In this document: piece by piece, positions 2,016 to 22,505 of the stretch
Layout: each line of letters starts with the position of its first letter
Position numbering within the stretch: the first letter of the stretch is position 1
Source of the DNA: a virus
IMG/VR virus record: IMGVR_UViG_3300049916_000344
Span: 1-22,505 of that record
Length of the DNA stretch: 22,505 nt
Direction: 5' to 3' (one strand)
The notes under the pieces: generated by a model
What the model was told of the DNA's origin: nothing
Databases searched by the model: none
What the model saw: only the letters and a program-made list of their open reading frames with translations
Made by a program: the position numbers and the translations under genes

Positions 2016-3818
2016 ATGTTATTAACCCTAGACTTTGAGACCTATTTCGACGTGCGCTGCTCCCTCGGCAAGATGACGACCATGGAGTACATCAACGACT
2101 CAGACTTTAAAGTGCACGGTGCATCTCTCAAGTTTGATGATGAACCCGCTGAGTGGTACCCACACGAAGAGCTTACAGAGGCACTCGCTCAAGTTGATTG
2201 GGACGACACTCAGCTTCTCTGCCACAACGCGTCTTTTGACGGCGCTGTTCTAGCAAGTGTGTATGGGTACGTGCCTCAATACTACCTAGACACTAGTGCT
2301 ATGGCCCGTGGCTTATATCCTGGACAGTCCAGCTCGCTCGCCAACACTGCAATCAGGATGTTTCCTGATGATGAGGCGATGCGTAAAGGCAACGATCTAG
2401 GTAAATCTAAAGGTCTACACGACCTGCCTCCCGAGATCGAGGAAGCATTAGCTAACTACTGCATTCAAGACAGCGAGCTGACTCATGCAATCTGGGTCAA
2501 GTTCAAAGACCAGTTGCCCTCTTCCGAGCTCGACCTCATCGACATCACGACTCGCATGTTTACTATGCCTAAGATGGTCCTTGACCGTGAACGCTTAACA
2601 GCTTACATGGACACGGAACGACTGACGGCTGAAAAGCTCATCGATGACTCTGGTGTCGAGCCAGAGGTTCTCCGGTCGAACCCTAAGTTCGCCACTTATA
2701 TACAAGAACAATTAGACCTTATTGTTCCCACAAAGAAATCGCCAACCACTGGCGAATTCATACCCGCTCTGGGTAAGAACGACGCTGGCTTTCAACAGCT
2801 ATGTGCTATGTATCCAGAGCACCAAAAAGTCTGGGACGCACGCGTAGCGGCTAAGTCGCGTCTCGCAGAGACAAGATCACAACGCTTTCTTAACGCTGCT
2901 AACCCAGACAATACCATTGGTATACCGCTGCGCTACTACGCAGCACACACTGGCAGGTTTGGTGGTTCAGATAAATTGAACTTCCAGAACATGCCACGCG
3001 GTTCAGAACTCCGCAAGTGCCTGACCGCACCCAAAGACCATCTTATCTACGTTGCCGACTTATCAAACATCGAAGCCAGAATGCTCGCGTGGTTAGCTGA
3101 ACAAGCTGACTTACTCGACCAATTCAGAGACGGCGAAGATGTGTATTCATCATTTGCCTCTACTATATATGATCGCCAAATCAGGAAAGATAACGATCCC
3201 ACTGAAAGATTCGTAGGTAAGACTGCCGTTCTCGGCCTCGGTTATGGAATGGGTTGGAAGAAGTTCCAATCAACACTAGCCCTTGGCGCTGCAGGACCGG
3301 TAGTTGAAGTTGACGACGAGAAATCGTGGTCGATTGTAAACGCTTACCGCAGTAAGTTTTATCGTATTCCACACCTGTGGAAGCTATGCGATTCATTCCT
3401 CATCGATATGCTTACAGGTCGTTCTAATTACCACAAGGTTGTGGAAACGGAACGCAACAGAATAAGACTGCCAAATGGCATGTCACTGTACTACGAAAAC
3501 TTACAACGCTCAGAACAGGGCTTTGAGTTTCAGTCTAACCGCAAGCAGGTTTACACCTACGGCGGCAAGATTACTGAAAACATAGTCCAAGCCTTGAGCA
3601 GGATTGTTGTCACGGATGCACTGATTAGGATTGCGTACAAAAGGAAAGACCTTCACGTCTGCCTCACCGTCCATGATGAAATCGTTTGTGTTGGCCCTGC
3701 AGAAGCTGCAGATGAGCGAATGCAGGACATTATCGACCTCATGTGTATACCCCCCAGTTGGGCAGAAGACCTCCCCCTCGCCGCCGAGGGCGGTTACGAC
3801 AGTGGATATTCCAAATGA
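2016..3818 (+). CDS. polA: Family A DNA polymerase with 3'-5' proofreading exonuclease
   Basis: A 600-residue replicative polymerase. The N-terminal DEDDy exonuclease keeps its residues: LDFETYFD (D6, E8), HNASFDG (D75) and YCIQD (Y148, D152). The polymerase domain has motif A VADLSNIEARMLAW (D348), motif B RFVGKTAVLGLGYG (R398, K402, L406, Y410) and motif C VHDEIV (H553, D554). There is no 5' nuclease domain, as usual in phages. At the position of E. coli Pol I Phe762 it has Leu406, a variant reported as common in marine viruses and proposed to go with temperate life. ATG 2016 follows a GAGGGGG at 2005-2010. Its stop overlaps the start of the CsrA-like gene (ATGA). It likely copies the phage genome together with the primase-helicase downstream. 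Confidence 0.93.
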   Translation: MLLTLDFETYFDVRCSLGKMTTMEYINDSDFKVHGASLKFDDEPAEWYPHEELTEALAQVDWDDTQLLCHNASFDGAVLASVYGYVPQYYLDTSAMARGLYPGQSSSLANTAIRMFPDDEAMRKGNDLGKSKGLHDLPPEIEEALANYCIQDSELTHAIWVKFKDQLPSSELDLIDITTRMFTMPKMVLDRERLTAYMDTERLTAEKLIDDSGVEPEVLRSNPKFATYIQEQLDLIVPTKKSPTTGEFIPALGKNDAGFQQLCAMYPEHQKVWDARVAAKSRLAETRSQRFLNAANPDNTIGIPLRYYAAHTGRFGGSDKLNFQNMPRGSELRKCLTAPKDHLIYVADLSNIEARMLAWLAEQADLLDQFRDGEDVYSSFASTIYDRQIRKDNDPTERFVGKTAVLGLGYGMGWKKFQSTLALGAAGPVVEVDDEKSWSIVNAYRSKFYRIPHLWKLCDSFLIDMLTGRSNYHKVVETERNRIRLPNGMSLYYENLQRSEQGFEFQSNRKQVYTYGGKITENIVQALSRIVVTDALIRIAYKRKDLHVCLTVHDEIVCVGPAEAADERMQDIIDLMCIPPSWAEDLPLAAEGGYDSGYSK

Positions 3819-4021
3819 CCCGATTGGTATTAACAAGAAAAATTGATGAAGAAATCATCATCTCTAACGACAAGCAAAAAGTTGTTTGCTCCATAGCCGT
3901 ATCAAAAATAGACCGCAATAACGTGCGGCTATCTTTTGAGGCTGAAGCCGACTTACGCATAGATCGGAAGGAGGTATTCGAGAGCAAGTACGGCGCGATT
4001 AAAACAAACCAAGAGAGCTGA
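3815..4021 (+). CDS. csrA: CsrA-like RNA-binding regulator (68 aa)
   Basis: The start is ATG 3815, overlapping the polymerase stop as ATGA. A longer in-frame start at 3743 would lie inside polymerase sequence. The protein matches CsrA/RsmA in layout: RLVLTRKIDEEIIIS (beta 1 and the TRK motif, residues 3-17), a middle NNVRLSFEAEADLRI, and IDRKEVFESKY (49-59). Arg8 and Arg51 occupy the places of the E. coli CsrA RNA-contact residues Arg6 and Arg44. CsrA dimers bind GGA-containing hairpins in mRNA leaders and change translation or decay. Here it could tune host carbon metabolism or phage mRNAs; the target is unknown. Divergent features: an ASP-rich DEE turn and SFEAEAD in place of the usual IGVxAPK. 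Confidence 0.82.
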   Translation: MTRLVLTRKIDEEIIISNDKQKVVCSIAVSKIDRNNVRLSFEAEADLRIDRKEVFESKYGAIKTNQES

Positions 4022-4025
4022 TGAC

Positions 4026-6530
4026 ATGCAAGTATCTTTTTTAGAGGCTTCTAATGGCTTGCCTCTCTCAAAAGTCATCACTGCCAAAGAGACAAAGCCC
4101 TACCCGTTTGTTAAAAACGTTACCTCACACAAGTACGACGTTACTGACATTGGTGAGCTATATGACCTTGTCGAGAAACACTCAGCACTTGGCCATTGTC
4201 TCTTAAAAGGTAACCCTAAAAACGACCTCGTTGACCGCAGCCGAGCGGGTTCAGTCCGTCGCCAGGATCTTAACCAGCTCCTGGTTCTGGACTTCGATGG
4301 CATTGAACACCCTGCTCACATCCCACAAGCGACGTACACATCTTCAGACGTATCGCGCCTTGCTGAGGTATTAGTACACCAAATGCCTGCGCAGTTGCGA
4401 GACACGTCGTACATAGCGCAAGCGAGTAGCTCACTGGGATTCAAAGGCAACAAGATAAGCATGCACCTCATCTTCATGCTCAAGGTTGCACTTCCCCCTG
4501 CCACACAAAAACTGTGGCTAACACACACCAATACAAATATTGATTACTTCAAGAATCAAGTGGGCTTGAGCGTCAATGGACAGTCTCTGACATACCCGCT
4601 CGACATCAGCCTTGCAGACAACTCCAAGCTAATCTTTATCGCTCCACCCCAGTTTCAAGACAGCGTCGTTAACCCGTTCGTTAGCAACGATGACCGATTG
4701 ACGCTTGTCCGCAAAACCAACTCACAGCTTGAGCTTGATAGTTTAGTAAATCTGAGCCCAGAGGCAGTATACAACTCTGTCTCTGACCTCAAGAACGTAA
4801 TGCGTAGAGACCAAGGTTACAGCCGTAAGAAAGAGAAGGTCTCGCTAGTCAACGTCAACAACCGTTCAGAAGAAGTCCTGACGAACCCTGACCGGATGAC
4901 TATACAAGTTGCCAACATGGCCTACTCGCCGTGGGTTAATTGCAATATCAATAACGGCAACAGCGCGGCGTACTACTTCAATCTTGAGCGGCCTAACTAC
5001 ATGTACAACTTCAAGGGTGAGCCGATCTTCGAGATCGAGAAAGCTGACCCTGACTTCTATGCATCTCTATCTGACATATTCGATGAGTACTTCAGTGCCA
5101 ACGGCGTTACGTGCCGACCAGTTGCTTTACGCGACTTTGATACTGACACGTACTACAACGGCTTATATGACCCAAACAAATCTCAGTTCGATGACTCATT
5201 CCCACTCACAGCAAGCTCTGCAACAGGCATACAAAGCTTCATGGCTACTCACGGCGCTCTGATGCCAGAGATTATTGTGGACGCAAAGATCTACTTCGAT
5301 CCTACGGAGAAAGTCCCGACCGTTGACCTTCAACAGTCACCCATGAAAATCAATCTTTACCGCCGTACCGAATACATGATGAACCCTGCGCAGCTAGATA
5401 GTGAGGACCGCCTTGGCGTTGGTGAAGCACAGTCCCTCAAGACTGCAGTCCCTCTAATCTACAAGCTGATCCACCATGTTCTGGGTAACGGTGACCAAGA
5501 ATTCGAACGCTTTATAAACTGGTTGGCTTACATCTTCCAGACCCGACGGAAAACCGGCACCGCATGGGTGTTCACAGGCGTTCAAGGCACAGGTAAAGGT
5601 CTGTTCTACAGCCACATACTTCGTCCGCTCTTCGGGTCACACCACGTACCCATGAAGTCAATACAATCGATAGAAGAGCAGTTCAACAGCTACATGCGTT
5701 CTGCTCTGTTCATGATTGTCGATGAGTTCCACATGGCTAGTGCGTCCCAAGGCACTATGAAGATGGCTGACAAACTTAAAAACCAAATCACTGAGCCAAC
5801 ACAAACCATACGTGCAATGCGCTCAAACCAAATAGAAGTTCCTAACTTCTGTAACTACATCTTCCTGACCAACCGAGCAGACGCAGTAAAGATCGAAGAG
5901 ACTGACCGACGTTACAACATTGCACCCCGTCAGGAGACAACATTAATCGAAGCACACCCTGAGATCATAGATAACTTGGATAACATCCAGCACGAGTTGT
6001 CTCTGTTCGCAGGGTATCTACAAACCTTCAAAGTCAGCGAACGTCTGGTTAAGACACCCATCATCAACGAAGCCAAGCAGCTTATGCGTCAAGTCAGTCT
6101 GTCTGACACTGAAGAGTTCTTTCAGTCAATACGTACAGGCGACCTACTACCCTTCGTTGACGTTCTCGATATCGATGTCAATGACGTAATGAAAGCCGGT
6201 GAATACATGTCTGCAAAGCGTGTAGTCAAAGGCTGGATTGCCACGTCAGACCATCCTTACTGCATGGTCAACGTCAATCAAATGCAACTTATCTACAACG
6301 TTCTTATTGCTACCCACACTACTCGGCTCAGTCCGATGCAGTTCGCAAAAATTGCAATGAAGAATGGAATTAAGTCCATACGTAAACGGCCTTACGGAGC
6401 TGACCGCAGCGTACATGCGGTGAGAGGAGCAGAAGTCAAATGGAAACTCGACGACCTAGAACGGCAAGAGCTAATCAACAAGTACTTCACTGACCCTCAA
6501 GACAAGAAACTACTGGAGAATTCTCAATGA
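4026..6530 (+). CDS. Primase-helicase: AEP-type primase domain plus DUF5906-like SF3 helicase
   Basis: An 834-residue protein with two parts. The N-terminal third carries archaeo-eukaryotic-primase-like signs: VLDFDG (D89, D91), KISMHLIF (S145, H147) and YPLDIS (D193), which form the metal and nucleotide site in this fold. The C-terminal half has an ATPase core: Walker A GVQGTGKG (~518-525), Walker B MIVDEF (~563-568) and sensor NYIFLTNRAD (~613-622), typical of DUF5906/SF3 phage helicases. It would make primers and unwind the fork for the polymerase two genes upstream. The stop overlaps the nuclease start by ATGA. The AEP assignment is weaker than the helicase one. Confidence 0.85.
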   Translation: MQVSFLEASNGLPLSKVITAKETKPYPFVKNVTSHKYDVTDIGELYDLVEKHSALGHCLLKGNPKNDLVDRSRAGSVRRQDLNQLLVLDFDGIEHPAHIPQATYTSSDVSRLAEVLVHQMPAQLRDTSYIAQASSSLGFKGNKISMHLIFMLKVALPPATQKLWLTHTNTNIDYFKNQVGLSVNGQSLTYPLDISLADNSKLIFIAPPQFQDSVVNPFVSNDDRLTLVRKTNSQLELDSLVNLSPEAVYNSVSDLKNVMRRDQGYSRKKEKVSLVNVNNRSEEVLTNPDRMTIQVANMAYSPWVNCNINNGNSAAYYFNLERPNYMYNFKGEPIFEIEKADPDFYASLSDIFDEYFSANGVTCRPVALRDFDTDTYYNGLYDPNKSQFDDSFPLTASSATGIQSFMATHGALMPEIIVDAKIYFDPTEKVPTVDLQQSPMKINLYRRTEYMMNPAQLDSEDRLGVGEAQSLKTAVPLIYKLIHHVLGNGDQEFERFINWLAYIFQTRRKTGTAWVFTGVQGTGKGLFYSHILRPLFGSHHVPMKSIQSIEEQFNSYMRSALFMIVDEFHMASASQGTMKMADKLKNQITEPTQTIRAMRSNQIEVPNFCNYIFLTNRADAVKIEETDRRYNIAPRQETTLIEAHPEIIDNLDNIQHELSLFAGYLQTFKVSERLVKTPIINEAKQLMRQVSLSDTEEFFQSIRTGDLLPFVDVLDIDVNDVMKAGEYMSAKRVVKGWIATSDHPYCMVNVNQMQLIYNVLIATHTTRLSPMQFAKIAMKNGIKSIRKRPYGADRSVHAVRGAEVKWKLDDLERQELINKYFTDPQDKKLLENSQ

Positions 6531-11861: not shown

Positions 11862-12323
11862 ATGAATGAACATAGCTTCGTTAAATCGATACACAGGTCA
11901 CTTCCTTCCCAAATTTATCGGTGGAAAATCCACGACACTTATACTGCGGGTGTGCCTGACGCTTTGTATGCAGGGCCAAGCGGCATATTATTCGTAGAAT
12001 ATAAGTGGGTAAACCTACCCAAAAGAGACACTACTAATATTAATTTAGGGTTATCAGCCCTACAAATAAACTGGCTTAACCGGTTTCATTTGTACGGACA
12101 TTCAGTTATGGTCGCTGTTGGAACAGCATACGGCGTTTTAGCATTAAGTGACAAATGTTGGCTAGATAACTTTAATAACTCGCAAGTGAAGGATTTAAGT
12201 GTTACTAAAGCCATCTTCACACAACTAATATTAGAAGCAACTCATGGTAGAGGCGCTAATGAACACACCAGCAATGGGCTCAGACCCGAGCCGAGAAGCG
12301 TTAAGGGTCAAGAAACAACTTAA
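11862..12323 (+). CDS. VRR-NUC / PD-(D/E)XK nuclease
   Basis: A 153-residue protein with the VRR-NUC pattern: GVPDALYA (G30, P32, D33), ILFVEYKW (E46, K48) and a downstream SALQINWLNRF helix (Q69). These residues form the metal-dependent nuclease site seen in phage Holliday-junction-type or flap nucleases of this group. It would act on branched DNA made during replication or recombination. The gene is visibly more AT-rich than its neighbours (for example 12030-12050 and 12160-12240), and it lacks a strong ribosome site. The last ~65 bp overlap the XRE gene, so the Arg/Pro/Gly-rich tail may not be conserved. Confidence 0.82.
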   Translation: MNEHSFVKSIHRSLPSQIYRWKIHDTYTAGVPDALYAGPSGILFVEYKWVNLPKRDTTNINLGLSALQINWLNRFHLYGHSVMVAVGTAYGVLALSDKCWLDNFNNSQVKDLSVTKAIFTQLILEATHGRGANEHTSNGLRPEPRSVKGQETT

Positions 12324-12912
12324 CTTTAAGCGGCTATGGAAAGCTCGCCGACAAGAATTAGATATTACTCAGAAGACTGCTGCCGACCAGCTTGGCATGA
12401 CGCAAGGTGCGTTCTCTCAGTACTTAAACGGCCACACAGAGATTAACGAAAAAGCTGTATTAAAGATTGCTAAGTTCTTAGGTGTGCCGCCCGTCGAGAT
12501 TGATCCAACATTTGATCAGAAGATGGTTAAGACGCCACCACCTTCCGCAATTGCGGAAGTCAACGTGACCAAGGTCACCAATGACTCGGGCGCGGCTATA
12601 AATAAACAGTACCTTCCCACTATATTCCAGGACCGAGATCCCTCAGACGTTATCTGGGTTGAGTTATCAGCGTCTATTGATGTGAATCCAGTGGACGACC
12701 CCAAGATGCGCAGGTTCATCCCAAAAGGTTCTGTACTCGGGTGCTTAAAAGTAGATGAGGTGCCGTATTCTTTTCTCAGCGCAGTACCCCGCCTTTATCT
12801 GTCTTCATCAACAAAACGAAAGCGTTACAGCTTGTTCTTTAGTGACACTCCACCGGCCCTCAAGCCAGAAACTAAAGAATTATTAACAGTTATATCGATC
12901 CTGTTCTCATAA
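12259..12912 (+). CDS. XRE-family HTH regulator (candidate phage repressor)
   Basis: ATG 12259 has AGAGG (12249-12253) at a short spacing; ATG 12244, five codons upstream, is the alternative. Residues 24-83 form a classic XRE helix-turn-helix: LWKARRQELDITQKTAADQLG, then MTQGAFSQYLNG as recognition helix and KIAKFLGVPPVEIDP. A linker (85-125) leads to a C-terminal domain (~130-215) with VIWVELSAS and IPKGSVLGCLKVDEVPYSF. It resembles the fold of S24/LexA-type repressor C-termini but has no convincing Ser-Lys protease pair, so self-cleavage is doubtful. Likely a lysogeny repressor or early regulator; the target operators are unknown. Confidence 0.8.
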   Translation: MNTPAMGSDPSREALRVKKQLNFKRLWKARRQELDITQKTAADQLGMTQGAFSQYLNGHTEINEKAVLKIAKFLGVPPVEIDPTFDQKMVKTPPPSAIAEVNVTKVTNDSGAAINKQYLPTIFQDRDPSDVIWVELSASIDVNPVDDPKMRRFIPKGSVLGCLKVDEVPYSFLSAVPRLYLSSSTKRKRYSLFFSDTPPALKPETKELLTVISILFS

Positions 12913-13286: not shown

Positions 13287-13445
13287 ATGCTATTGTTTAC
13301 AAAATACCGCCCACCTTTCAGTCGTACTGCCGCTCCTTTATGCGCTGCATACGCTTTCGTTTTTTTCGGATCTTCGGTTGCTACGGCGACAGGGGTATGT
13401 GTGAGACGGAAGCCAGTTGAGGGGTGTTTTAATGAGCGCACATGA
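13287..13445 (+). CDS. Possible small hydrophobic protein (52 aa)
   Basis: ATG 13287 has GGAG at 13275-13278, 8 bp upstream, and the frame runs 52 codons to TGA 13443. It overlaps the HTH gene by 14 bp. Residues ~13-40 (AAPLCAAYAFVFFGSSVATATGVCV) form one hydrophobic span between basic ends, so it may be a single-pass membrane peptide or carry a signal sequence. No family is recognised. Without it, the 175-bp gap between DUF3310 and the HTH gene would hold no gene. Confidence 0.4.
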   Translation: MLLFTKYRPPFSRTAAPLCAAYAFVFFGSSVATATGVCVRRKPVEGCFNERT

Positions 13446-13701
13446 GCACATCTCTAACGCGAGAGCAGATATACTGATGGGCTATCTGACTGATCAATAT
13501 GGTCCTATCATGGATTTAGATGAGGTGGCTGCGGCGTTGCGCTTAAAGAAGCAGACACTGTACCAACAGATGTATCACAATAAATTTGACATACCGCGCA
13601 TGAAAAATGGGAAGAAGTATTTATTCCACACAGCGGATGTTGTCGATCATCTTTGTGGCGACTGCAATTCGCATCACGATATAGGCACTAACTGTGATTG
13701 A
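13432..13701 (+). CDS. HTH protein, candidate excisionase/directionality factor (89 aa)
   Basis: ATG 13432 is preceded by GAGGGG (13419-13424) at 7 bp; an upstream TTG at 13417 is less likely. Residues ~27-75 carry a winged or MerR-like helix-turn-helix of the excisionase/AlpA kind: IMDLDEVAAALRLKKQTLYQQMYHNKFDIPRMKNGKKYLFHTADVV, in which a wing KNGKKYLF follows the recognition helix. The C-terminus has a short Cys/His stretch (CGDCNSHHD). It faces the integrase and overlaps its 3' end by 14 bp. This placement suits a directionality factor, but a transcription regulator is equally possible. Confidence 0.68.
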   Translation: MSAHEHISNARADILMGYLTDQYGPIMDLDEVAAALRLKKQTLYQQMYHNKFDIPRMKNGKKYLFHTADVVDHLCGDCNSHHDIGTNCD

Positions 13702-14746
13702 TCTTTGGCACTAGGCTCTTAGCAGTGAGCTGTGTGTACCGCTTCAGTTGTTTCCAATCTCGATGACCTGATATGCGTGCCACCTCATGGATTTGCAGAC
13801 CCTTCTCGAACAAACGAGATATAGCCTCGTGCCGAAGGTCATGGAAATGCAGATCCGTAATACCTGCCTTAGCTCTTACCAACGCGAACCGGTCAGACAC
13901 CGCAGCGGAGGTTTGCATTGGGAATATGTTTCCTTTTGGCTGCTTACCTCTATGTGCCGAGCGTTCTAATATTCCAACGCCCCATTCCCTAATAACTCCT
14001 AAAGCTATATTACTGACCGGTATTATCTGGTCGTTACCTTTCTTCTCTCTCGGGTGCTTTCTGTCCTTGATAAAAAAAGTACTGGCGTCGAAATCCACAT
14101 ACTCCCATCGAAGCTCACAGATTTCTTTCTGCCGCATCCCTGTTTCCACAGCTAATTTAATCAGCGGCACCATCCAACCTGACCGGTGACTCTCCGCCGC
14201 ATCGAGCAACATTTCGAGCTCTTGATCCGACACCCTACGGTCACGCTGGCGACTACCAGCCACCAGATCTATCTTTGACAACGCTGACAGCGCGTCTCTC
14301 GCAACGTTTGACGGCAAATTTACACCCCAAAGTGTGCGTGCATGATCCAGAGTTTGAGCTAAATAAGTGATCTCCTGGTTCAAGGTAGAGCCGCTGATTG
14401 GCTTTCGACCGTTGTAACCTAACCGTCGTTTCTGTGCATAGAGGAATATCATCTCGGGAGTGAGGGTGGTCACCAGCACATCTTTGAAGTTTTGTGCCGT
14501 CAGTTTAATCGTAGCCATTTTAGATTTAGCGAAGGGCTTGTGAGGATGTACCTCAGCGATGTAACGATCCATCAGGGTGTCGATTGTGTAGCCACTAGTA
14601 GTAGAGCTCGAAGACGTGAGTGCCGCCTTTGTCTCGACCCCCCACGCTACAGCCGCTGGTTTGGTCGGTAACGTCTTGTAATAACGTTTCCCCATGTGGG
14701 ACACCGTTACGTACCAGTTATCCCCTCTTTTCACGATACGCGCCAT
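13688..14746 (-). CDS. int: Tyrosine-family integrase
   Basis: I start at ATG 14746 (352 residues), which has AGGAG 6 bp upstream; the frame could extend to 14794. An N-terminal arm-binding region (residues 1-45: RIVKRGDNWYVTVSHMGKRYYKTLP) and a SAM-like core-binding domain (~52-150) precede the catalytic domain. The full catalytic set is visible: R205 (ETGMRQKEI), K230 (DRKHP), H302 and R305 (FHDLRHE), H328 (ISGHRD) and Y337 (KRYTQL). It would recombine attP with a host tRNA-Ser gene. The attP-like core lies 127 bp upstream of its start, and the gene ends tail to tail with the HTH gene. Confidence 0.95.
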   Translation of the reverse strand: MARIVKRGDNWYVTVSHMGKRYYKTLPTKPAAVAWGVETKAALTSSSSTTSGYTIDTLMDRYIAEVHPHKPFAKSKMATIKLTAQNFKDVLVTTLTPEMIFLYAQKRRLGYNGRKPISGSTLNQEITYLAQTLDHARTLWGVNLPSNVARDALSALSKIDLVAGSRQRDRRVSDQELEMLLDAAESHRSGWMVPLIKLAVETGMRQKEICELRWEYVDFDASTFFIKDRKHPREKKGNDQIIPVSNIALGVIREWGVGILERSAHRGKQPKGNIFPMQTSAAVSDRFALVRAKAGITDLHFHDLRHEAISRLFEKGLQIHEVARISGHRDWKQLKRYTQLTAKSLVPKINHS

Positions 14747-14763
14747 ACATGGCTCCTGTGCAA

Positions 14764-14833: not shown

Positions 14834-14847
14834 AGGGAAAATAAAAA

Positions 14848-14863
14848 CCCCTGATATCAGGGG
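14848..14863 (-). terminator. Rho-independent terminator, minus strand, tRNA-type
   Basis: CCCCTGATATCAGGGG is a perfect 16-bp palindrome. On the minus strand it is followed by TTTTTATTTT, which fits an intrinsic terminator. It starts 9 bases after the CCA of the tRNA-Ser-like end in the attP core. Integration would therefore give the restored host tRNA gene a terminator and shield the integrase from tRNA transcription. On the plus strand no T-run follows. Confidence 0.72.
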
Positions 14864-14872
14864 CTTAGGGGG

Positions 14873-14892
14873 TGGCGGAGAAGGAGGGATTT
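14873..14892 (-). other. attP core: 3' end of a tRNA-Ser gene
   Basis: Read on the minus strand, these ~20 bases are the 3' end of a tRNA: AATCCCTCC (end of the T-arm), CTTCTCC (3' acceptor strand), discriminator G and CCA. A G discriminator with this acceptor is typical of bacterial tRNA-Ser. The upstream bases do not form a T-loop, D-arm or anticodon arm, so this is only a tail, as expected for a phage attachment core that restores the host tRNA on integration. It is adjacent to the integrase and flanked by repeat clusters. Confidence 0.75.
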
Positions 14893-15282: not shown

Positions 15283-15891
15283 TCACCAGTTGATTGCATT
15301 TAAATCTGTAATAGAGGACGCAGCATCAATCTGAACCCTTAGCCCCCTAGCTTTGATGTGGCACGCGTCTACGTGCGCAGCTAACGCCATGCCCACCCGC
15401 TTTAACTGCAAGGCATCGAGCGTAATTGCTGAGTTGTTTAACAGCGTCCACTCTATTGAAACCGAGTCATCGATGGTCGCTTGTAAGATGGCCCCCTGCA
15501 ATCGTCTCTGAGACACGTCATCACACTGAAAGACATTGTCATCCCATGTGAAGCTACTGAATTCTTCTGCATCTCGGTTGGCCTTTAACTCTTGCCACTT
15601 GTCGAGCTTATGTTGCTCAAGGTCGCGGGGATCTATCCATTCTCCAGCATGCTCATCCCAATATGTGAACGGGGGTGCTGGCATAGTTGGTACATCAGTG
15701 GCGATGATTGCACCCATGTCGCTGTCGTATCGGTACTTAAAATCCCCGAACAACTCTACATTGACCTCTGGTCCTAAGACCCATACCTCTCCCTGCTCCT
15801 CAAAGAGCAAATCAACAGGCAGCTCATCGGGCGTTTGCTGATGTCCACAGATAAAATTTGCGGCGTCTAATTGCAGGTAATCGTTCATCAT
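15283..15891 (-). CDS. DUF4376-containing tail-associated protein
   Basis: A 202-residue protein coupled to the tail fibre gene by ATGA (a second ATG follows at once at 15888). The N-terminal half is strand-rich (VWVLGPEVNVELFGDFKYRYD) and leads to a YWDEHAGEWIDP linker. From ~90 on it matches the DUF4376 layout: a helical WQELKANRDAEEFSSFTWDDNVFQCD, then RRLQGAILQATI and a last KRVGMALAAHVDACH helix. DUF4376 proteins sit next to phage tail fibres and are thought to be tail-fibre assembly factors or tip components. This fits its place straight after the J-like fibre. Confidence 0.78.
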   Translation of the reverse strand: MMNDYLQLDAANFICGHQQTPDELPVDLLFEEQGEVWVLGPEVNVELFGDFKYRYDSDMGAIIATDVPTMPAPPFTYWDEHAGEWIDPRDLEQHKLDKWQELKANRDAEEFSSFTWDDNVFQCDDVSQRRLQGAILQATIDDSVSIEWTLLNNSAITLDALQLKRVGMALAAHVDACHIKARGLRVQIDAASSITDLNAINW

Positions 15892-17906
15892 CGCTTTGCC
15901 GCCATCACAACGAGTTTGCCCACGAACGTGTTCCCAGATTTAAAAGACGCCCCACCAGGATTGGACGTGCAAGACACTCTTAGAGATATAGTGTCCGCGT
16001 AATTGTTACCAATCACGAACGATCCGGTAATCGGGACGCCAATTCCATCAGCCCCAAACGTCACACCAAGACTAGTGTGTAAGGTGCTGCCCGTATAAAT
16101 ACTGACAATTAAATTCGTTTTAGTGCCATTACTGCCGTAAGCAGATAGGGCACCCATAATTATTATTCGCCCCGACGATCCAGGAGGAATGTAACCAGCG
16201 GACAGATATAAGGATGCAACCGTAATTAGGGAACTACTTAGATTTCCAGACGTAGTACCCGTTGCAAACCTCGGCACAGTTACAGCCTCACCGCCAAGTT
16301 GCAAAGTGTTAATCTCAGCGTTGCCAATCTTCGCGCCAGTGATCGAAGCGTTTTGTATTTTTGCACCAGTGACTGCGAGGTTATCTATCTTTGCTGTTTT
16401 TATAGAGGCATCTTGAATTTTAGCTTCCGTAACAGCCCCTACCCCTATCTTTGCACTCTCAATAGTACCGTTGGCAATCATCGCGTTAGAGATATAAGTG
16501 CCAGCTTGAACTAACATGCCGTTTAGATAAGCGGGAGTTGTCACCACCACAAAAGGAACAGTGCTAGAGGTGGCGCTAGTGCCGACAGCGAACTTGCTAG
16601 CATTTACATAAAACGCGCTGCTGTTGCCCGTGCCGTTGATCAACCCGAACCCTGAGACCGTGCCGTTGCTATCAATCGTAACCGTGTACTTGCCCAGAAT
16701 CCCATTGATACTCGATGAGTTGACTGCAACGCTAGTTGTATTCGAGCCGACCGTAGTGCTTAACGCATTCACGGAGTTAACGGCTGCAGTGATCTGTCCG
16801 CCTTGAGATGAAACCGTAGAGGTAAGGTTCGAGACAGCCGACGCATTAGCGCTTACTGAAGTGTTTGTCGCCGCTAAATCGTTCTGCAAAACAACAATGT
16901 CGCTGGACGTAGACGTTATACCGGCCTCGGTATTTGTTACGCGGGTCGTGAGGCCCGACAGAGCACTAGCATTAGCAGCGATACTACCGCCTTGGTTAGT
17001 AGTAGTCGTTTGCAGAGCAGTAATAGCGGCGGCACTGGTTGCTGTGGTGGACAGTAAGCTAATGATATTTGAACTGTTGTTAGCAACAGTGGTATTCAGA
17101 CCAGTGATGGCGGTAGCGTTGGTTTGTGTGGCCGTTGTCAGGGTGACAACATCGTTAGTCAAAGTGCCTATCAAACCCTGCGCAGCAAGAATGTCAGCCT
17201 CCACGAGGTCTACTGCCGTATCGATGATCGATATCATGTCGATCTCTGCACTGAGGTCTGTCGCTAATTGACTCTGCGTAATAGAGTCCGTGAGAACTCC
17301 AAGAAGAAATGTTACGTCAACAGCGGCCTGCCCAAGCGTTCCGTTCAGGCTATTCCATGGGCCTCTTTGGTTAATCACATTTACGTGACGCGCCCAGTAA
17401 TACCATGACTCAGCACTGTCTACGTCATCGACGTATATCATGCCGTAAGAGATACCTATTAGCCGCGCACCGCCAAGCTGGTTTATGTCATTACGCCACA
17501 CCTCAGTGAATGAGTGACCGTAGTAAGTGTCGAAAGGGAAGTCCCACTCGACAAAGATTACGTTGAAACCGCCAGTAACTTGAAGCCCTGTAGGAGCCAC
17601 TGGGTCAGAAGGCGGGTCCGTGTTGAAATTACCATCATCGCCGCCAGGAATAATAACGACGCCACCACCGCCAGGATTGGACGTGCCGCCACCACCGTCT
17701 ACAGTTAGCCCTTCTACAGCCAAACCACCATCAATAAGATCGCGATAAGTTACAGCCGCATCTCTCGGATCACCTCTCCGCCCAAGCCTGACTTCTAAAG
17801 CTTCAGCGATGGCCGTCAAATATGCGCGTTGGGCAGGGCTAGCGTCCGACGGTACTTTAGGAAAGCCAGGAAGTTTTGTTGGATTAGGTGTCCTCCCCCC
17901 ATTCAT
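15888..17906 (-). CDS. J-like tail fibre / host-specificity protein
   Basis: A 672-residue virion protein. Order: a short N-terminal helix with a Gly-rich linker (~70-95, VDGGGGTSNPGGGG), a fibronectin-III-like domain (~98-196, APTGLQVTGGFNVIFVEWDF...WYYWARHVN) and a long Thr/Ala/Ser-rich helical repeat region of DUF1983 type (~215-405, for example NDVVTLTTATQTNATAITGL). A short-repeat stretch of AKI/ASI units follows (~472-530), then a beta-rich C-terminal domain (~545-672). This matches the C-terminal half of lambda J-type central fibres that contact host receptors. It is coupled upstream by ATGA. The C-terminal domain is probably the receptor-binding part. Confidence 0.85.
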   Translation of the reverse strand: MNGGRTPNPTKLPGFPKVPSDASPAQRAYLTAIAEALEVRLGRRGDPRDAAVTYRDLIDGGLAVEGLTVDGGGGTSNPGGGGVVIIPGGDDGNFNTDPPSDPVAPTGLQVTGGFNVIFVEWDFPFDTYYGHSFTEVWRNDINQLGGARLIGISYGMIYVDDVDSAESWYYWARHVNVINQRGPWNSLNGTLGQAAVDVTFLLGVLTDSITQSQLATDLSAEIDMISIIDTAVDLVEADILAAQGLIGTLTNDVVTLTTATQTNATAITGLNTTVANNSSNIISLLSTTATSAAAITALQTTTTNQGGSIAANASALSGLTTRVTNTEAGITSTSSDIVVLQNDLAATNTSVSANASAVSNLTSTVSSQGGQITAAVNSVNALSTTVGSNTTSVAVNSSSINGILGKYTVTIDSNGTVSGFGLINGTGNSSAFYVNASKFAVGTSATSSTVPFVVVTTPAYLNGMLVQAGTYISNAMIANGTIESAKIGVGAVTEAKIQDASIKTAKIDNLAVTGAKIQNASITGAKIGNAEINTLQLGGEAVTVPRFATGTTSGNLSSSLITVASLYLSAGYIPPGSSGRIIIMGALSAYGSNGTKTNLIVSIYTGSTLHTSLGVTFGADGIGVPITGSFVIGNNYADTISLRVSCTSNPGGASFKSGNTFVGKLVVMAAKR

Positions 17907-19681
17907 GCATTTAGCTCCGCTATGGTGGACGCCAGAGTCACCTCATCTACTTCATAGTCTGAGATTATTTCGACTTCCCACTCAGTGCCGTGATTAGCAG
18001 GTAGCCTCGCGATGGGAGAAGCGCCAATGTCTCCATCGGCATTCGCAGGAAGTGTAGATGCCTGAGTTAAGAATCGACCGTTGCTGTTTTTATTAATTTC
18101 TTGTTGAGCTATCAAAACTCCATCAGCATAAACTTTGAATTCTACTGGGTAATCTTGTGCAACGATCTTGATTGCGGCCATACTTGTAGGCTGGCTTATG
18201 AACACTCGGCTTTTGTACTTAGCCGAGCCGCGAACTTGTGGGCCACCAGCCTGAAATTGAATTATCCGCAGCAAGTTATCGGCTGCTATGAAGAAGAGCT
18301 CACCCGTCGATTTCTGTGTGATACCACCCCGAACTGATGTTGGGTTCACTTCAAATGTTGAGAAAGCCGTTTCAGGGCGTCGAGGGTCAAAGATCCACCC
18401 GCCGTGATTACTCCCGCTTGACCAGAAAGCGACGTACACACCTTCATACAAGAACGCCTTATAGGTCGATGCGTAAAAGTCCGAATTCCATTGTTTAGGA
18501 CTGATGAACTCTTTGGATATAACTTGGCCCGTGGTGTTTGACACTTGAACCAGACCATCTGGCCCTGAGTACAAGACATACTCGCCCATGTCCACGATTG
18601 AGTCTGTGTTCAAACAGGATTGCGCAACGTCAACCTGAACCGCAGTCATTGCTGCAGGGTCAGTACCAGTAACAAAATAGGGGAACCCTTTGGTCATTAC
18701 CACGACGCCATTGTTGGTCGCCGATAGCCCCATGATTTCTTCTTCAATAGTAATCCGGTACTGCACGGGCCATGCGTGCGGTAAGTACGGCTCTGAGAAA
18801 CACAATCTCTTGCCAGCGTACCCACAGAAAACACCATTACCAACAGCTATTAACCCTTGCATCGGGCCATCTGGGTATAAAGAAGTGTCGTCATTAGGGG
18901 GGCCAACCCATCCTTCTGATGGCAGTACTTCGCCTAACCCTGCTGAGGCACGGTTATCCGTAAGACTAGTATTTGCAAAAGGTATCTCTGCTACGAACTG
19001 AAAGTAAGCTGCGTTAGAGCCTGCGTTTGCTCGGTAGATCCGCTTCTTACCGTTAGCAAAGCTGTATCCGCTACCGAACGCACTAGCGGATTGAGGCGTA
19101 GAGATGGTGATTGTCTCGGGAGAAGTCCAAGAAATAATATTAGACGGTGGGCTGGGTGGTCCTTCCTCGCCGTAGTCGCTTACCAAAGTATAGACGTAGG
19201 AAAAGTCCTCTACTGACTCTGTGGTAGAGGCAGTCCCCGCTTTTGTAACGCCAGGACGGGCAGTTGGTGCCGGTATTCCTAGTCTAAAAGAAGTGCTCGG
19301 GTAAACATTAAGACTGCCCGATACCATTGAAGTATAAGTACCCATCCGAGGGTAGTCGTCCCCCGTCCAATAACCACGCTCGTAACTATCTTCGGGAATC
19401 GGGGACTCTAAAAATTTAACCCCAGAGTCTTCAAACTGAAAAAGCTTTGGCGTGTCGCCAACACGGTCGTACCAAGCAATAGACTTAGTCGTGCCAACGA
19501 GATTCCCCGTGAAGCCACTACCGGCTCCAAAGCTACCAAGCCTAAGGTCGGCTTTCATCGGAGTCAATCGACCAGAATCGAAGGTCATGTTGTGGGCTGT
19601 TTGGCCAAGCCCAGTATTCAAAAGACGGGGCGACTTTGCTGGGGCAATACCTGCGAAATTTTCTAACTTAAAGACCGCCAT
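17903..19681 (-). CDS. Virion structural protein, tail tip/tube type (592 aa)
   Basis: The N-terminus reads NFAGIAPAKSPRLLNTGLGQTAHNMTFDSGRLTPMKAD, a recurrent opening of large phage tail or neck proteins (a G-x-x-P-x-x-S-P-R-L-L pattern, then A-x-N and a G-x-L-x-P). The rest is beta-rich, with repeated blade-like segments (GVFCGYAGKRLCFSEPYLPHAWP, GVVVMTKGFPYFVTG, YVLYSGPDGLVQVS) suggestive of a beta-propeller or stacked strands. No transmembrane segment and no enzyme motif are seen. It starts directly after the stop of the 84-residue protein and overlaps the fibre gene, so the two are probably made together and assembled at the tail end. Confidence 0.72.
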   Translation of the reverse strand: MAVFKLENFAGIAPAKSPRLLNTGLGQTAHNMTFDSGRLTPMKADLRLGSFGAGSGFTGNLVGTTKSIAWYDRVGDTPKLFQFEDSGVKFLESPIPEDSYERGYWTGDDYPRMGTYTSMVSGSLNVYPSTSFRLGIPAPTARPGVTKAGTASTTESVEDFSYVYTLVSDYGEEGPPSPPSNIISWTSPETITISTPQSASAFGSGYSFANGKKRIYRANAGSNAAYFQFVAEIPFANTSLTDNRASAGLGEVLPSEGWVGPPNDDTSLYPDGPMQGLIAVGNGVFCGYAGKRLCFSEPYLPHAWPVQYRITIEEEIMGLSATNNGVVVMTKGFPYFVTGTDPAAMTAVQVDVAQSCLNTDSIVDMGEYVLYSGPDGLVQVSNTTGQVISKEFISPKQWNSDFYASTYKAFLYEGVYVAFWSSGSNHGGWIFDPRRPETAFSTFEVNPTSVRGGITQKSTGELFFIAADNLLRIIQFQAGGPQVRGSAKYKSRVFISQPTSMAAIKIVAQDYPVEFKVYADGVLIAQQEINKNSNGRFLTQASTLPANADGDIGASPIARLPANHGTEWEVEIISDYEVDEVTLASTIAELNA

Positions 19682-19936
19682 TTATCCTCCGATATTTTTT
19701 TCCTGCATCCATACGATTGCAGCGATAACTGATAGAAGCGCAGTGGTTGCAAACTGCAGTATCGTTTTACCGACTGTCTTCTTAGTGCCTCTCCAAGAGT
19801 CGAGCAGCATTCGCAGCTCACGCATGTCGTGATATGCTTTTTCATCGGAAAGGCCGACCTTTTTAAGAGCTTCTTCTGCCCCCTTCTTAGCAGCCTGCTC
19901 TATCAAATTTTGTAGCTCTAATTCAGTTAAGTTCAT
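19682..19936 (-). CDS. Small DUF6127-like membrane-anchored protein (holin candidate)
   Basis: An 84-residue protein whose TAA stop abuts the next ATG. The first ~50 residues are charged and helical (LTELELQNLIEQAAKKGAEEALKKVGL, then DMRELRMLLDSWRGTKKT). They are followed by one hydrophobic span at ~61-78 (ILQFATTALLSVIAAIVWM) and a short tail. Phage proteins with an ALKKxGLxDEKAxxDMxELRxLLxxWR block belong to DUF6127, sometimes called holin-like; the assignment is from memory. A single span and its place among virion genes fit either a holin or a membrane-bound tail factor. Confidence 0.6.
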   Translation of the reverse strand: MNLTELELQNLIEQAAKKGAEEALKKVGLSDEKAYHDMRELRMLLDSWRGTKKTVGKTILQFATTALLSVIAAIVWMQEKNIGG

Positions 19937-19947
19937 TTGAGAGATTC

Positions 19948-20427
19948 CTATGAGGCGCTTGCCGTCACTCCTATTAACAGGGCAATCAGCCCAGCGATAA
20001 GGGAAACCGTGATAATCACTGTGAGAATATCGCTGTACATTTGCTTCGCCTTGGCTTTCTCACGAGCTGCTGTAGCTCGTTGCTGTTTGATTAAACGCCG
20101 CTCTTTCATCATGTCTTGCCACAGTGCGCCGTTCCCCGAGTAAATCATTAACTCGCGGAGCTCTTTTTCAAAGGTGGCTATTTTGTTTTTGTGAAGAGAT
20201 ATTTGGAGGGCTTGCGATTCGACGCTTGTAGCGCCGAATGTTTTAGCTAAGAAAGGTTGGTTTTTGTTAGATTGTTCTAGAGCATAAAGTTCTTCTTTGG
20301 CATCCCAGAACTTCCCGAGTTCACCAGCATAATCAGCAAGCTCACGCCCATTAGACATAGCTGTCTTGAGCGTTTTATACGCCACGTTAGCGGTAGATAT
20401 AATAGCCATTGCTTCAAGTGCTGGCAT
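19948..20427 (-). CDS. Coiled-coil protein with C-terminal membrane span (159 aa)
   Basis: A 159-residue protein; ATG 20427 has only a weak GGG close by, and ATG 20409 is an alternative. Most of it is helical: NVAYKTLKTAMSNGRELADYAG, a FWDAKEELYALEQSNKNQ segment, a long basic helix (ERRLIKQQRATAAREKAKAKQM) and a final hydrophobic span (~134-156, ILTVIITVSLIAGLIALLIGV). It resembles uncharacterised proteins seen in marine podo- and siphovirus-like genomes near tail genes. It lies just after the bilin reductase and before the DUF6127-like protein. Function unknown. Confidence 0.6.
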   Translation of the reverse strand: MPALEAMAIISTANVAYKTLKTAMSNGRELADYAGELGKFWDAKEELYALEQSNKNQPFLAKTFGATSVESQALQISLHKNKIATFEKELRELMIYSGNGALWQDMMKERRLIKQQRATAAREKAKAKQMYSDILTVIITVSLIAGLIALLIGVTASAS

Positions 20428-20437
20428 TTGCCCATAC

Positions 20438-21103
20438 TCATATTTCAGGAAATAAACATTCCTGAATGAATCTACTCACCTCCTCATCCGTAAAACCAAG
20501 CGCCGCCATGACTTTAGGTGTGTGGGGATTTTTCTTTTGCCAAAAACAATACTTGTTTTGTGCAGCCGTAAAATCGTTGTCGCCACGTTCACCTACATTG
20601 CTCAAGTAGTACTGAAGATTGCTCTTTAACAATCCTATTACTGACTCAAGCTCTTCGACATCGGTTATAAATCCTGCGCTAACCATGTCGTCACTAAAAA
20701 TATTTCTAGCCCATTCGGGCAACTCTCGTTTCTTGCTCCAAGTCATCGGGGCTACTCGCTCCTTGAAGCCCAAGAGCATTTTATGATCACCGTCTATTGG
20801 ACTGAAATCATGAAATGCACCTGTTACTTTCTTCGGGCCTGCAATCAAATCAAACCCGAACACCGGTGATCCGTCATCGGTATGTGGGAACACGGTGAGA
20901 TGCATCATGTACAGTCTCTTCGTATCCCGCGCATCTACAACGTCTAAATGCGCCCTTCTAAACCTGTCCGATTTCCATAAGTAATTATCCCATGGATATC
21001 GATGACCTTCATCATATGTTTCAAAGCCTGAGAGCTCAGAAACAAGCCAATCCTTAGCCCTCTCTAGGCTAGTGAATATTGTGCTTTCTTGTGACCCTGT
21101 CAT
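20438..21103 (-). CDS. pcyX: Ferredoxin-dependent bilin reductase, PcyX-like
   Basis: A 221-residue protein of the PcyA/PebS/PcyX family, which reduces biliverdin with ferredoxin electrons. Visible signs: RFRRAHLDV (H52, at the place of PcyA His88), SPVFGFDLIAGPKKVTGAFHDFSP (D85, at the place of the catalytic PcyA Asp105) and the closing pattern AQNKYCFWQKKNPHTPKVM...GFTDEEVSRFIQECLF. The residue aligned with PcyA Glu76 is not Glu (Asp39/Asn40). Together with the short length, this suggests PcyX, which makes phycoerythrobilin, rather than PcyA. The start ATG 21103 has AGGA at good spacing and overlaps the heme oxygenase gene by 35 bp. No ferredoxin gene is seen, so host ferredoxin would be used. 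Confidence 0.9.
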   Translation of the reverse strand: MTGSQESTIFTSLERAKDWLVSELSGFETYDEGHRYPWDNYLWKSDRFRRAHLDVVDARDTKRLYMMHLTVFPHTDDGSPVFGFDLIAGPKKVTGAFHDFSPIDGDHKMLLGFKERVAPMTWSKKRELPEWARNIFSDDMVSAGFITDVEELESVIGLLKSNLQYYLSNVGERGDNDFTAAQNKYCFWQKKNPHTPKVMAALGFTDEEVSRFIQECLFPEI

Positions 21104-21617
21104 ATATTCCTATCACAAAGTCAAAGGCAGCAATTGCTTCCTGCATTTCGGCTTTATCGTGGCTCAAGTTTTCTCGAATCTTTGCAATCAAATCTTTCCG
21201 GTCATCAAATTCATACCGACGACACTTTCCTGGCAGTTTGCCTTTTAGCATTTGCCCACCAAACATATCCCCCATATGGTGAACATATATATGAGCAAGT
21301 GTTGCTGCCTTTGACTGACGCCATACCCGATCACAATATTCTGCAATGAAATCATGGTAGATCGTCGTCTCTAAATTGTGCTCTGACGTAAGTTCCGCTA
21401 AATCTTCTAGCATTGCTGAAAAACGGGTAATGCCATCCAACTGTTCGACCCACCCAACCCGCCGCGCTTTGCTCTCTACATCGCCATAAGCGAGTAAAAG
21501 GTTCGCCAGCAGATCTGCATAGGCAGCGGCACTAATGGTCCCATTGACCATGCTCTGCGCCATAGGGTGGTGCTCTGCCCTATCATGTATGGGCTTGATA
21601 AACTCTTTTAGCGTCAT
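21069..21617 (-). CDS. ho1: Heme oxygenase
   Basis: I start at ATG 21617, one base after the upstream stop; the frame could extend to 21659 through the previous gene. The 182 residues show the heme oxygenase signs: FIKPIHDRAE (H11 as proximal heme ligand, like human HO-1 His25) and the distal helix HIYVHHMGDMFGGQML (G116, D117, G120, G121; D117 at the place of human Asp140), followed by a basic LPGKCRRYEF. It opens heme to biliverdin IX-alpha, CO and Fe2+, using ferredoxin or another donor. It is shorter than plant and cyanobacterial HO1 (~240). The next gene uses its product, and the two reading frames overlap. Confidence 0.93.
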   Translation of the reverse strand: MTLKEFIKPIHDRAEHHPMAQSMVNGTISAAAYADLLANLLLAYGDVESKARRVGWVEQLDGITRFSAMLEDLAELTSEHNLETTIYHDFIAEYCDRVWRQSKAATLAHIYVHHMGDMFGGQMLKGKLPGKCRRYEFDDRKDLIAKIRENLSHDKAEMQEAIAAFDFVIGIYDRVTRKHNIH

Positions 21618-21618
21618 G

Positions 21619-22263
21619 TCAAAAGCCCAAATTAAAACCGACGATAACTCGATCTTCACCAGAGTTATTCGGCATAGTCGAATGCGGTAACCAACCAGGA
21701 AACAGAAACATCACACCTGTATAAACCGGTAGTTGTCGCTTCGTTATCGCATGAACAGGGGCATCGTTTACCCAAACCGATGATTTCAAATGCCAAGCTG
21801 GATCATGGAAAACCAAGTCACCAGCATCATGTTCAGCCTTTGCATAGAACACCCCACTAAATGGAACATTGGAGTGAATATGCTCTGGTATGTACCCTCC
21901 CTCTGGGTACATCGAGTACCACATGCTTTCTATCCCAGCTCTAGCCGAGTACCAATGTTCTTTGTCAACGTGTTTAAGCAGCTCTTTGGCCATACTAATA
22001 ATTAAATTAGTTGGCTGTTCCCATTCTTCAAGCAAATGCAACTGGTCATTTGTTCCGTGGGAAGTTACCCCATGCTTTTCCCGCAGTTCTTTATCGTCAG
22101 TCCTTGTCGCTGCGTTCCAACCATTGGATATAAGTCGGAGATTTTTAGTTTGCTCTTTATGTTCAGCCGCTAGCGCACAGATCTCTTCACAAACATCGTA
22201 GTTCTGGCATTCCCCCGCATACACGGGGCTTTCAAAAAACCCTAGCTCGCGACCCTCTAGCAT
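21619..22263 (-). CDS. 2OG-Fe(II) oxygenase (TIGR02466/PF13759-like)
   Basis: I start at ATG 22263, where it forms a 7-bp overlap with the upstream stop (ATGCTAG) and has GGAA nearby; ATG 22296 is possible. The 214 residues have the double-stranded beta-helix marks: YIPEHIHSNVPFSGVFYAKAE (H128, H130), AGDLVFHDP, then MFLFPGWLPHSTMP (H194) and RVIVGFNL (R205, 2OG contact). These match a putative-hydroxylase family seen in cyanophages and marine phages. It couples oxidation of an unknown substrate to 2-oxoglutarate decarboxylation, with Fe2+ as cofactor. It lies directly upstream of heme oxygenase, which releases Fe2+. Confidence 0.82.
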   Translation of the reverse strand: MLEGRELGFFESPVYAGECQNYDVCEEICALAAEHKEQTKNLRLISNGWNAATRTDDKELREKHGVTSHGTNDQLHLLEEWEQPTNLIISMAKELLKHVDKEHWYSARAGIESMWYSMYPEGGYIPEHIHSNVPFSGVFYAKAEHDAGDLVFHDPAWHLKSSVWVNDAPVHAITKRQLPVYTGVMFLFPGWLPHSTMPNNSGEDRVIVGFNLGF

Positions 22264-22505
22264 TGTTTTTCCGATGGCTTTTTTGTGTGAGCCCATAAAA
22301 CCAACGAGTGTCTTGTGCCAGTTAAAACCGGCGTTACTTTGTGCGGAAATGCAGAAGGAAAAAGAATCATTCTTCCCCTTCTTTTTTCTGCAACCCAGTT
22401 CTTACCACCTATCTGCAACTTGAGGTCGCCCCCCACATAGTCCTTTGGGTCTGATAACTCTACTGTCGCACTCATAATGCGACTTGCTGCTAAACCATTA
22501 GCAGA
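22257..22505 (-). CDS. 2OG-Fe(II) oxygenase, C-terminal part (PKHD/P4H type; cut by window edge)
   Basis: The frame is open to base 22505, so the gene begins outside the window; ATG 22475 is internal. The visible 82 residues contain MSATVELSDPKDYVGGDLKLQ and FPSAFPHKVTPVLTGTRHSLVLW, the second half of a P4H/PKHD-type oxygenase. The distal iron His is in FPSAFPH and the 2OG-binding Arg in TGTRHS. The first His-x-Asp pair is outside the window. Its stop overlaps the start of the second oxygenase. Two unlike 2OG oxygenases in a row feed into the heme oxygenase block; their substrates are not known. Confidence 0.85.
   Translation of the reverse strand, partial: SANGLAASRIMSATVELSDPKDYVGGDLKLQIGGKNWVAEKRRGRMILFPSAFPHKVTPVLTGTRHSLVLWAHTKKPSEKQC

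Follow-up and report, generated by a model that had tools for sequence, protein, structure and literature searches.

The window analyzed here, which is the whole of IMG/VR record IMGVR_UViG_3300049916_000344, is a linear viral fragment of 22,505 bases with no DNA match among phage records. Near its right end, the minus strand encodes a heme oxygenase (HO; 21069..21617, 182 aa, ATG at 21617) and a ferredoxin-dependent bilin reductase (20438..21103, 221 aa), two overlapping genes that an earlier note, made from the sequence alone, had placed at 20438-21617. Pfam profiles uphold both assignments (PF01126, E 2e-14, and PF05996, E 2e-21, respectively), and the genes overlap by 35 nt. Immediately upstream on the same strand, a 2OG-Fe(II) oxygenase gene (21619..22296; PF13759, 1e-16; phrog_81, 2e-29) stops 1 nt before the HO start; it is missing in the relatives L005, L015, and G010. 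It is preceded in turn by the 3' portion of another 2OG-Fe(II) oxygenase gene (22257..22475, minus strand; PF13640, 4e-8), which is incomplete at the window end and has a 193-aa homologue in the relative G008.

Downstream of the reductase, and still on the minus strand, the order of transcription runs through a 159-aa protein of no assigned function that begins 10 nt after the reductase (19948..20427), a DUF6127 protein (19682..19936; PF19622, 3e-22), a virion protein (17903..19681; phrog_511, 2e-117), a tail fibre (15888..17906; phrog_19394, 1e-30; PF09327, 7e-7), and a tail protein with DUF4376 (15283..15891; PF14301, 2e-22). These are followed by an attP core, TGGCGGAGAAGGAGGGATT (14873..14891, plus strand), which is the reverse complement of a tRNA-Ser 3' end identified with ARAGORN, an adjoining terminator-like stem found by consensus scan only (14845..14866, minus strand), and a tyrosine integrase (13688..14749, minus strand; PF00589, 7e-28). 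The plus strand carries a replication module annotated at 2016..6530, with DNA polymerase A (2016-3818; PF00476, 8e-25), a CsrA-like regulator (3818..4021; PF02599, 5e-11), a primase with relatives in phages KPP25 and phiA008 (4026-6530), a nuclease, and a helicase, and then an XRE-type repressor candidate (12244..12912; PF01381, 3e-12; phrog_4, 3e-13) and a small HTH_17 protein that is a possible excisionase (13417..13701; PF12728, 6e-7). The integrase, attP, XRE protein, and CsrA-like gene, which the earlier note had seen together on one stretch, are thus all confirmed, by profile matches and by the identity of attP with the tRNA-Ser 3' end. The early region also encodes a GP88-domain protein (PF17338; 8544-9332) and a DUF6876 protein (540-932). 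No tRNA genes were found in the window or its relatives.

The reality of this arrangement is well supported by independent records. A metagenomic contig that is a linear fragment could in principle be an assembly chimera, an outcome that the earlier note had named as refuting its reading; two other IMG/VR records, however, are 99.9% identical to the window along 4.3 kb and 99.6% identical along 5.6 kb, and of the 32 ORFs of the window, about 24 are shared, with their order conserved, by the diverged relatives G008 and G010, leaving the chance of a chimera negligible. On the same grounds, a chance explanation of the gene pair is excluded. One of the two near-identical records, L003, extends past the window's right end, where it shows the fibre gene of the module described further on.

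The HO bears the hallmarks of its family, namely the proximal His, the distal Asp, and the Gly-rich helix (H11, D117, G120, and G121). H11 and D117 align with His20 and Asp136 of HmuO, and the predicted model (pLDDT 94.8) adopts an HO fold that matches HmuO and HO-1 (Foldseek E 1e-6). H11 and the GDMFGG motif had been read correctly from the sequence: H11, D117, G120, and G121 are invariant in 19 phage HOs, as are E15 and Q122.

The reductase is a PcyX, as judged from its sequence, phylogeny, diagnostic residue, and predicted fold, and the earlier reading of it as PcyX-like is borne out. Its best solved structure is PcyX_EBK42635 (PDB 5owg; E 1e-50), with PcyA reaching only 1e-16, and its predicted model (pLDDT 91.5) matches both PcyA and PcyX structures (Foldseek E 8e-13). 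In an alignment to Synechocystis PcyA, the residues Glu76, His88, and Asp105 correspond to Asp54, His68, and Asp85 of the window reductase, and these three are invariant across 20 diverse phage reductases. Of the two residues first pointed out, D85 therefore stands as the equivalent of PcyA Asp105, whereas His52 corresponds to PcyA His74 and lies outside the catalytic set of Asp54, His68, and Asp85; the closing Q-Y-Q-KN pattern is present (Q189, K190, N192). PcyX enzymes lack Glu76, a residue found specifically in PcyA (PMC10151467), and the CB_2 phage enzyme, which was shown to be a PcyA, does not have the catalytic Asp55 that is particular to PcyX (PMC11480375). The diagnostic Asp is present in all viral reductases found that were readable through the region. 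Finally, maximum-likelihood trees, built without alphaproteobacterial PcyA, CB_2, and four reductases that were not readable in frame from their BLAST start (L330, L363, L364, and L365), group the window reductase with EBK42635 and the enzyme of phage Mosig (100/100), apart from PcyA, PebA, PEBB, and HY2; inside this PcyX clade, the window and Mosig belong to different groups.

Among candidate hosts, bilin reductases above the cut-off were found in 2 of 369 gammaproteobacterial and 1 of 385 alphaproteobacterial genomes, and those that were read are not PcyX. The gammaproteobacterial G406 carries three bilin-reductase-like genes (L185, L187, and L188) and the alphaproteobacterial G1086 two (L194 and L196); none of these is a PcyX, and in the aligned parts they have no PcyA catalytic residues. 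These genes could constitute a separate reductase-like family.

Both HO and reductase are under purifying selection, with dN/dS values of 0.09 for the reductase and 0.05-0.12 for the HO where synonymous sites are unsaturated. The two also keep company, since the HO was found with the reductase in all 31 viral records, a set gathered via the reductase or the fibre that could miss phages with HO only. A mosaic is seen between L005 and L003, where the HO and reductase are 96% identical in DNA, the adjoining 2OG gene is missing in L005, and the next gene is 62% identical in protein, which suggests exchange of the HO-reductase pair.

The remainder of the phage can be pictured from G008, in which podovirus genes including a P22-type portal, a terminase, and a capsid are found. 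The G008 capsid shares 58% identity with its counterpart in Pseudomonas phage KPP25, and the G008 terminase and primase point to KPP25, phiR18, and phiA008; KPP25-type capsid, portal, terminase, and primase are all present in G008, and the primase is in the window itself. From its genes, the window phage belongs to a group related to KPP25, with a predicted podovirus virion, and capsid relatives are encoded on at least 596 IMG/VR stretches. In G010 (61,823 bp; labelled linear in IMG/VR), tail-fibre genes lie at both contig ends, which, together with the gene order, fits a genome of about 62 kb that is circularly permuted and nearly complete.

The temperate signs noted earlier are strengthened by their recurrence. 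The integrase is 66-72% identical in four relatives and recurs at 35-49% identity in 7 of 17 more distant ones, including all five of at least 53 kb; a peptide-pattern integrase scan of IMG/VR was too specific and missed known relatives. The core GGCGGAGA-RRGAGGGATT, or a close variant, occurs a single time in each of eight genomes, at a distance of 18-131 bp from the integrase, with no other occurrence in 1.18 Mb, and it equals the 3' end of tRNA-Ser according to ARAGORN in six bacterial genomes carrying the core. Accordingly, the integrase adjoins an attP that matches a bacterial attB, a hallmark of temperate phages. G1179 and G1191 have no tRNA-Ser core by the integrase and share a different stretch resembling another tRNA 3' end (GATTCCGACCCGAGCCTCCA), such that the podovirus group may use several tRNA sites. 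What the earlier note had found unusual, the link of the pair to integrase, attP, XRE, and CsrA genes, holds insofar as a tyrosine integrase is rare among PcyX phages, being confined, among 31 records with PcyX or its fibre, to the window's group and G017. The integrase is, on the other hand, standard in the phage group, also in members without pigment genes. Since the integrase and attP core recur across the group while the reductase occurs in none of the 17 more distant relatives, the temperate trait belongs to the phage group as such, to which the pigment genes have been added.

With regard to the host, profile searches of the window found no photosynthesis gene, and Pfam searches that covered the majority of the larger genes in G008, part of G010, G017, and G021, except for a few of extreme length, yielded no photosynthesis, phycobiliprotein, phytochrome, or bilin lyase genes. 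No known bilin-binding gene, of the kind that the earlier note had advised looking for, was found in these scans. A non-photosynthetic host is plausible. Several routes to a more precise host gave no answer: the tRNA-Ser end is unspecific, with at least 117 matching stretches in Bacillota, Beta- and Gammaproteobacteria, and others; the best integrase matches, 38% in Gammaproteobacteria versus 37% in Alphaproteobacteria, allow no decision; and a capsid search in the order of a Halieaceae genome gave matches of 26-29% only. A thin sample of Gamma- and Alphaproteobacteria, with about 340-390 genomes from each class, contained no close prophage.

A more telling link of the pair than the lysogeny genes is a tail-fibre module. 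In G008, a 107-aa protein and a 1074-aa tail fibre (phrog_9851, E 1e-236) lie upstream of the pair, and the full order, comprising the 107-aa protein, a small protein of 70-100 aa, the fibre, a few variable genes, HO, and reductase, recurs in G010, G017, G021, G1195 to G1199, G1201, G1200, G025, and G027, on backbones with few other genes in common (at least six, by a shared-gene table). Starting from the reductase, and counting loci whose upstream sequence extends for at least 7 kb, the fibre is found upstream on the same strand in 20 of 22; starting from the fibre, HO and reductase are found downstream in 25 of the 35 loci whose downstream sequence extends for at least 6 kb. These loci are not independent, and tail-fibre regions are hot spots of exchange, and therefore the counts show linkage rather than function. 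The isolate Mosig fits the module, with a 31% identical fibre upstream, and five near-complete relatives of the window's group that have no pair have no such fibre either. An exception is G1194, where reductase and HO flank the fibre, one on each side. The fibre does not require the pair, because the control cyanophages P-SSM2 and S-CAM1 carry related fibres with no HO or reductase within about 10 kb. The small 70-100 aa protein has a conserved 'DKTFYGF...W.WS...GHL' pattern and is present in nearly all module genomes, for instance at L051:11074-11328 and L399:5127-5339; the two copies that were scanned had no PHROG family match.

Conversion of heme to biliverdin, CO, and iron, and of biliverdin to phycoerythrobilin with electrons from ferredoxin, is the established chemistry of the two enzyme families. 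In published assays, as reported in PMC11480375 and in work it cites, PcyX yields phycoerythrobilin and phage HemO yields biliverdin. We propose, with a probability of roughly 0.7, that the window carries a novel branch of the HO-PcyX pathway already known from phages, acting late in the lytic growth of a temperate podovirus. Specifically, the HO would open host heme to biliverdin IXalpha, CO, and Fe2+, and PcyX would reduce the biliverdin in two steps to phycoerythrobilin, the product that the window reductase should make, with electrons from host ferredoxin; activity and product are here predicted from homology. Because the pair lies in a structural (tail) operon, which is co-directional in the window, G008, and G010, it would act during tail making rather than in the prophage, although it is gene order only that suggests such late expression. 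Selection would act on the reduced bilin, or on the draining of biliverdin; this is tentatively favoured over iron release alone because the reductase is kept wherever the HO was seen in the examined records. The benefit of the pair to the phage is the least certain part of the explanation.

The most serious competitor is a selected iron release or heme clearance, in which the HO frees Fe2+ late for 2OG-Fe(II) oxygenases or other needs and PcyX merely removes biliverdin. Such oxygenases adjoin the HO in both the window and Mosig, and a role for iron is discussed in PMC11480375. We nevertheless regard this as possible but doubtful, given that an HO alone would suffice for it, yet a reductase with a full catalytic set is always present, and that the 2OG gene beside the HO is missing in several relatives. 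Nor do the fibres have the HxH motifs expected of iron carriers, with one HxH in 20 fibre ORFs, and the related idea of an iron-carrying (Ferrojan) fibre was rejected on this count. In a different vein, the bilin could be a part of the virion, with the fibre or one of its small conserved neighbour proteins binding phycoerythrobilin to give a pigmented, perhaps light- or redox-responsive tail. This is a long shot, and if true it would explain the joint movement of fibre and pigment genes between unrelated phages.

It is improbable that the pair is a passenger riding in the recombination hot spot of tail-fibre regions with little or no benefit of its own: the mosaic identities around it and the cyanophages with related fibres but no pair would fit, but the purifying selection on both genes and the conserved order on at least six backbones would not. 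An equally unlikely outcome is a different product, phycocyanobilin (PCB) or another bilin in place of phycoerythrobilin. The CB_2 phage enzyme, once thought PcyX-like, proved to be a PcyA (PMC11480375), albeit one lacking the diagnostic Asp, and pre-PcyA enzymes make other bilins (PMC10151467); the window enzyme, however, has Asp at the PcyA Glu76 site and falls in the PcyX clade. Lysogenic conversion, by which a prophage-expressed pair would colour, protect, or supply the lysogen, is less probable still. An integrase, attP core, and repressor candidate do share the contig with the pair, but the pair sits inside the tail operon, with about 6 kb between it and the integrase, integrase-bearing relatives lack it, and most PcyX phages have no tyrosine integrase.

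The HO-PcyX pair of the window can be set beside several known systems. The PcyX/HemO of uncultured ocean phages (PcyX_EBK42635, PDB 5owg) resembles the window in gene pair, diagnostic Asp, clade, and fold, but is only about 45-50% identical, and the window's carrier is a temperate podovirus with a different backbone. Likewise, Pelagibacter phage Mosig EXVC030M (MT647606) has a 2OG-Fe(II) oxygenase, HO, and reductase arranged as in the window, with a related fibre upstream, yet it is a 141-kb Kyanoviridae phage of SAR11 whose reductase and HO are 45% and 27% identical to those of the window. Its HO-PcyX operon also contains a ferrochelatase gene (L002:1276-2046), and Mosig thus has both heme-making and heme-breaking steps. 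The valaS phages and the CB_2 phage (PMC11480375) share with the window hemO and pcyA/X in phages of presumably non-photosynthetic hosts; CB_2, however, makes PCB without the diagnostic Asp, and no alaS was found with the window pair. Specifically, no AlaS, and hence no valaS three-gene cassette, was found among the scanned ORFs of the window (a fragment), G008, part of G010, G017, and G021. Pseudomonas phages KPP25 and phiR18 and Aeromonas phage phiA008 are akin to the window's group in backbone (capsid 58% to KPP25, terminase and primase relatives), whereas the marine group of the window has an integrase together with a tRNA attP; homology searches for the HO and the bilin reductase reported no match in KPP25-type phages. 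Finally, cyanophage PcyA has the bilin reductase family in common with the window, but is only about 28% identical, has Glu at the diagnostic site, and serves photosynthetic hosts.

HO-PcyX phages, including those of non-photosynthetic hosts, were already known (PMC11480375; MT647606). The temperate podovirus carrier and the fibre link of HO-PcyX appear to be new; in the open literature searched, with subscription papers mostly outside the search, neither a temperate phage with PcyX nor the linkage to the fibre was found to be described. The co-occurrence of HO and reductase in phages of non-photosynthetic bacteria has been called enigmatic (PMC11480375), and the travelling of the pair with a tail fibre offers a clue to why viruses without photosynthesis genes retain pigment enzymes, as its linkage to the fibre, seen across many backbones, directs attention to late infection or the virion. 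Because the carrier is temperate and its attP core is defined, it also offers a way of obtaining a lysogen and, with it, a tractable host.
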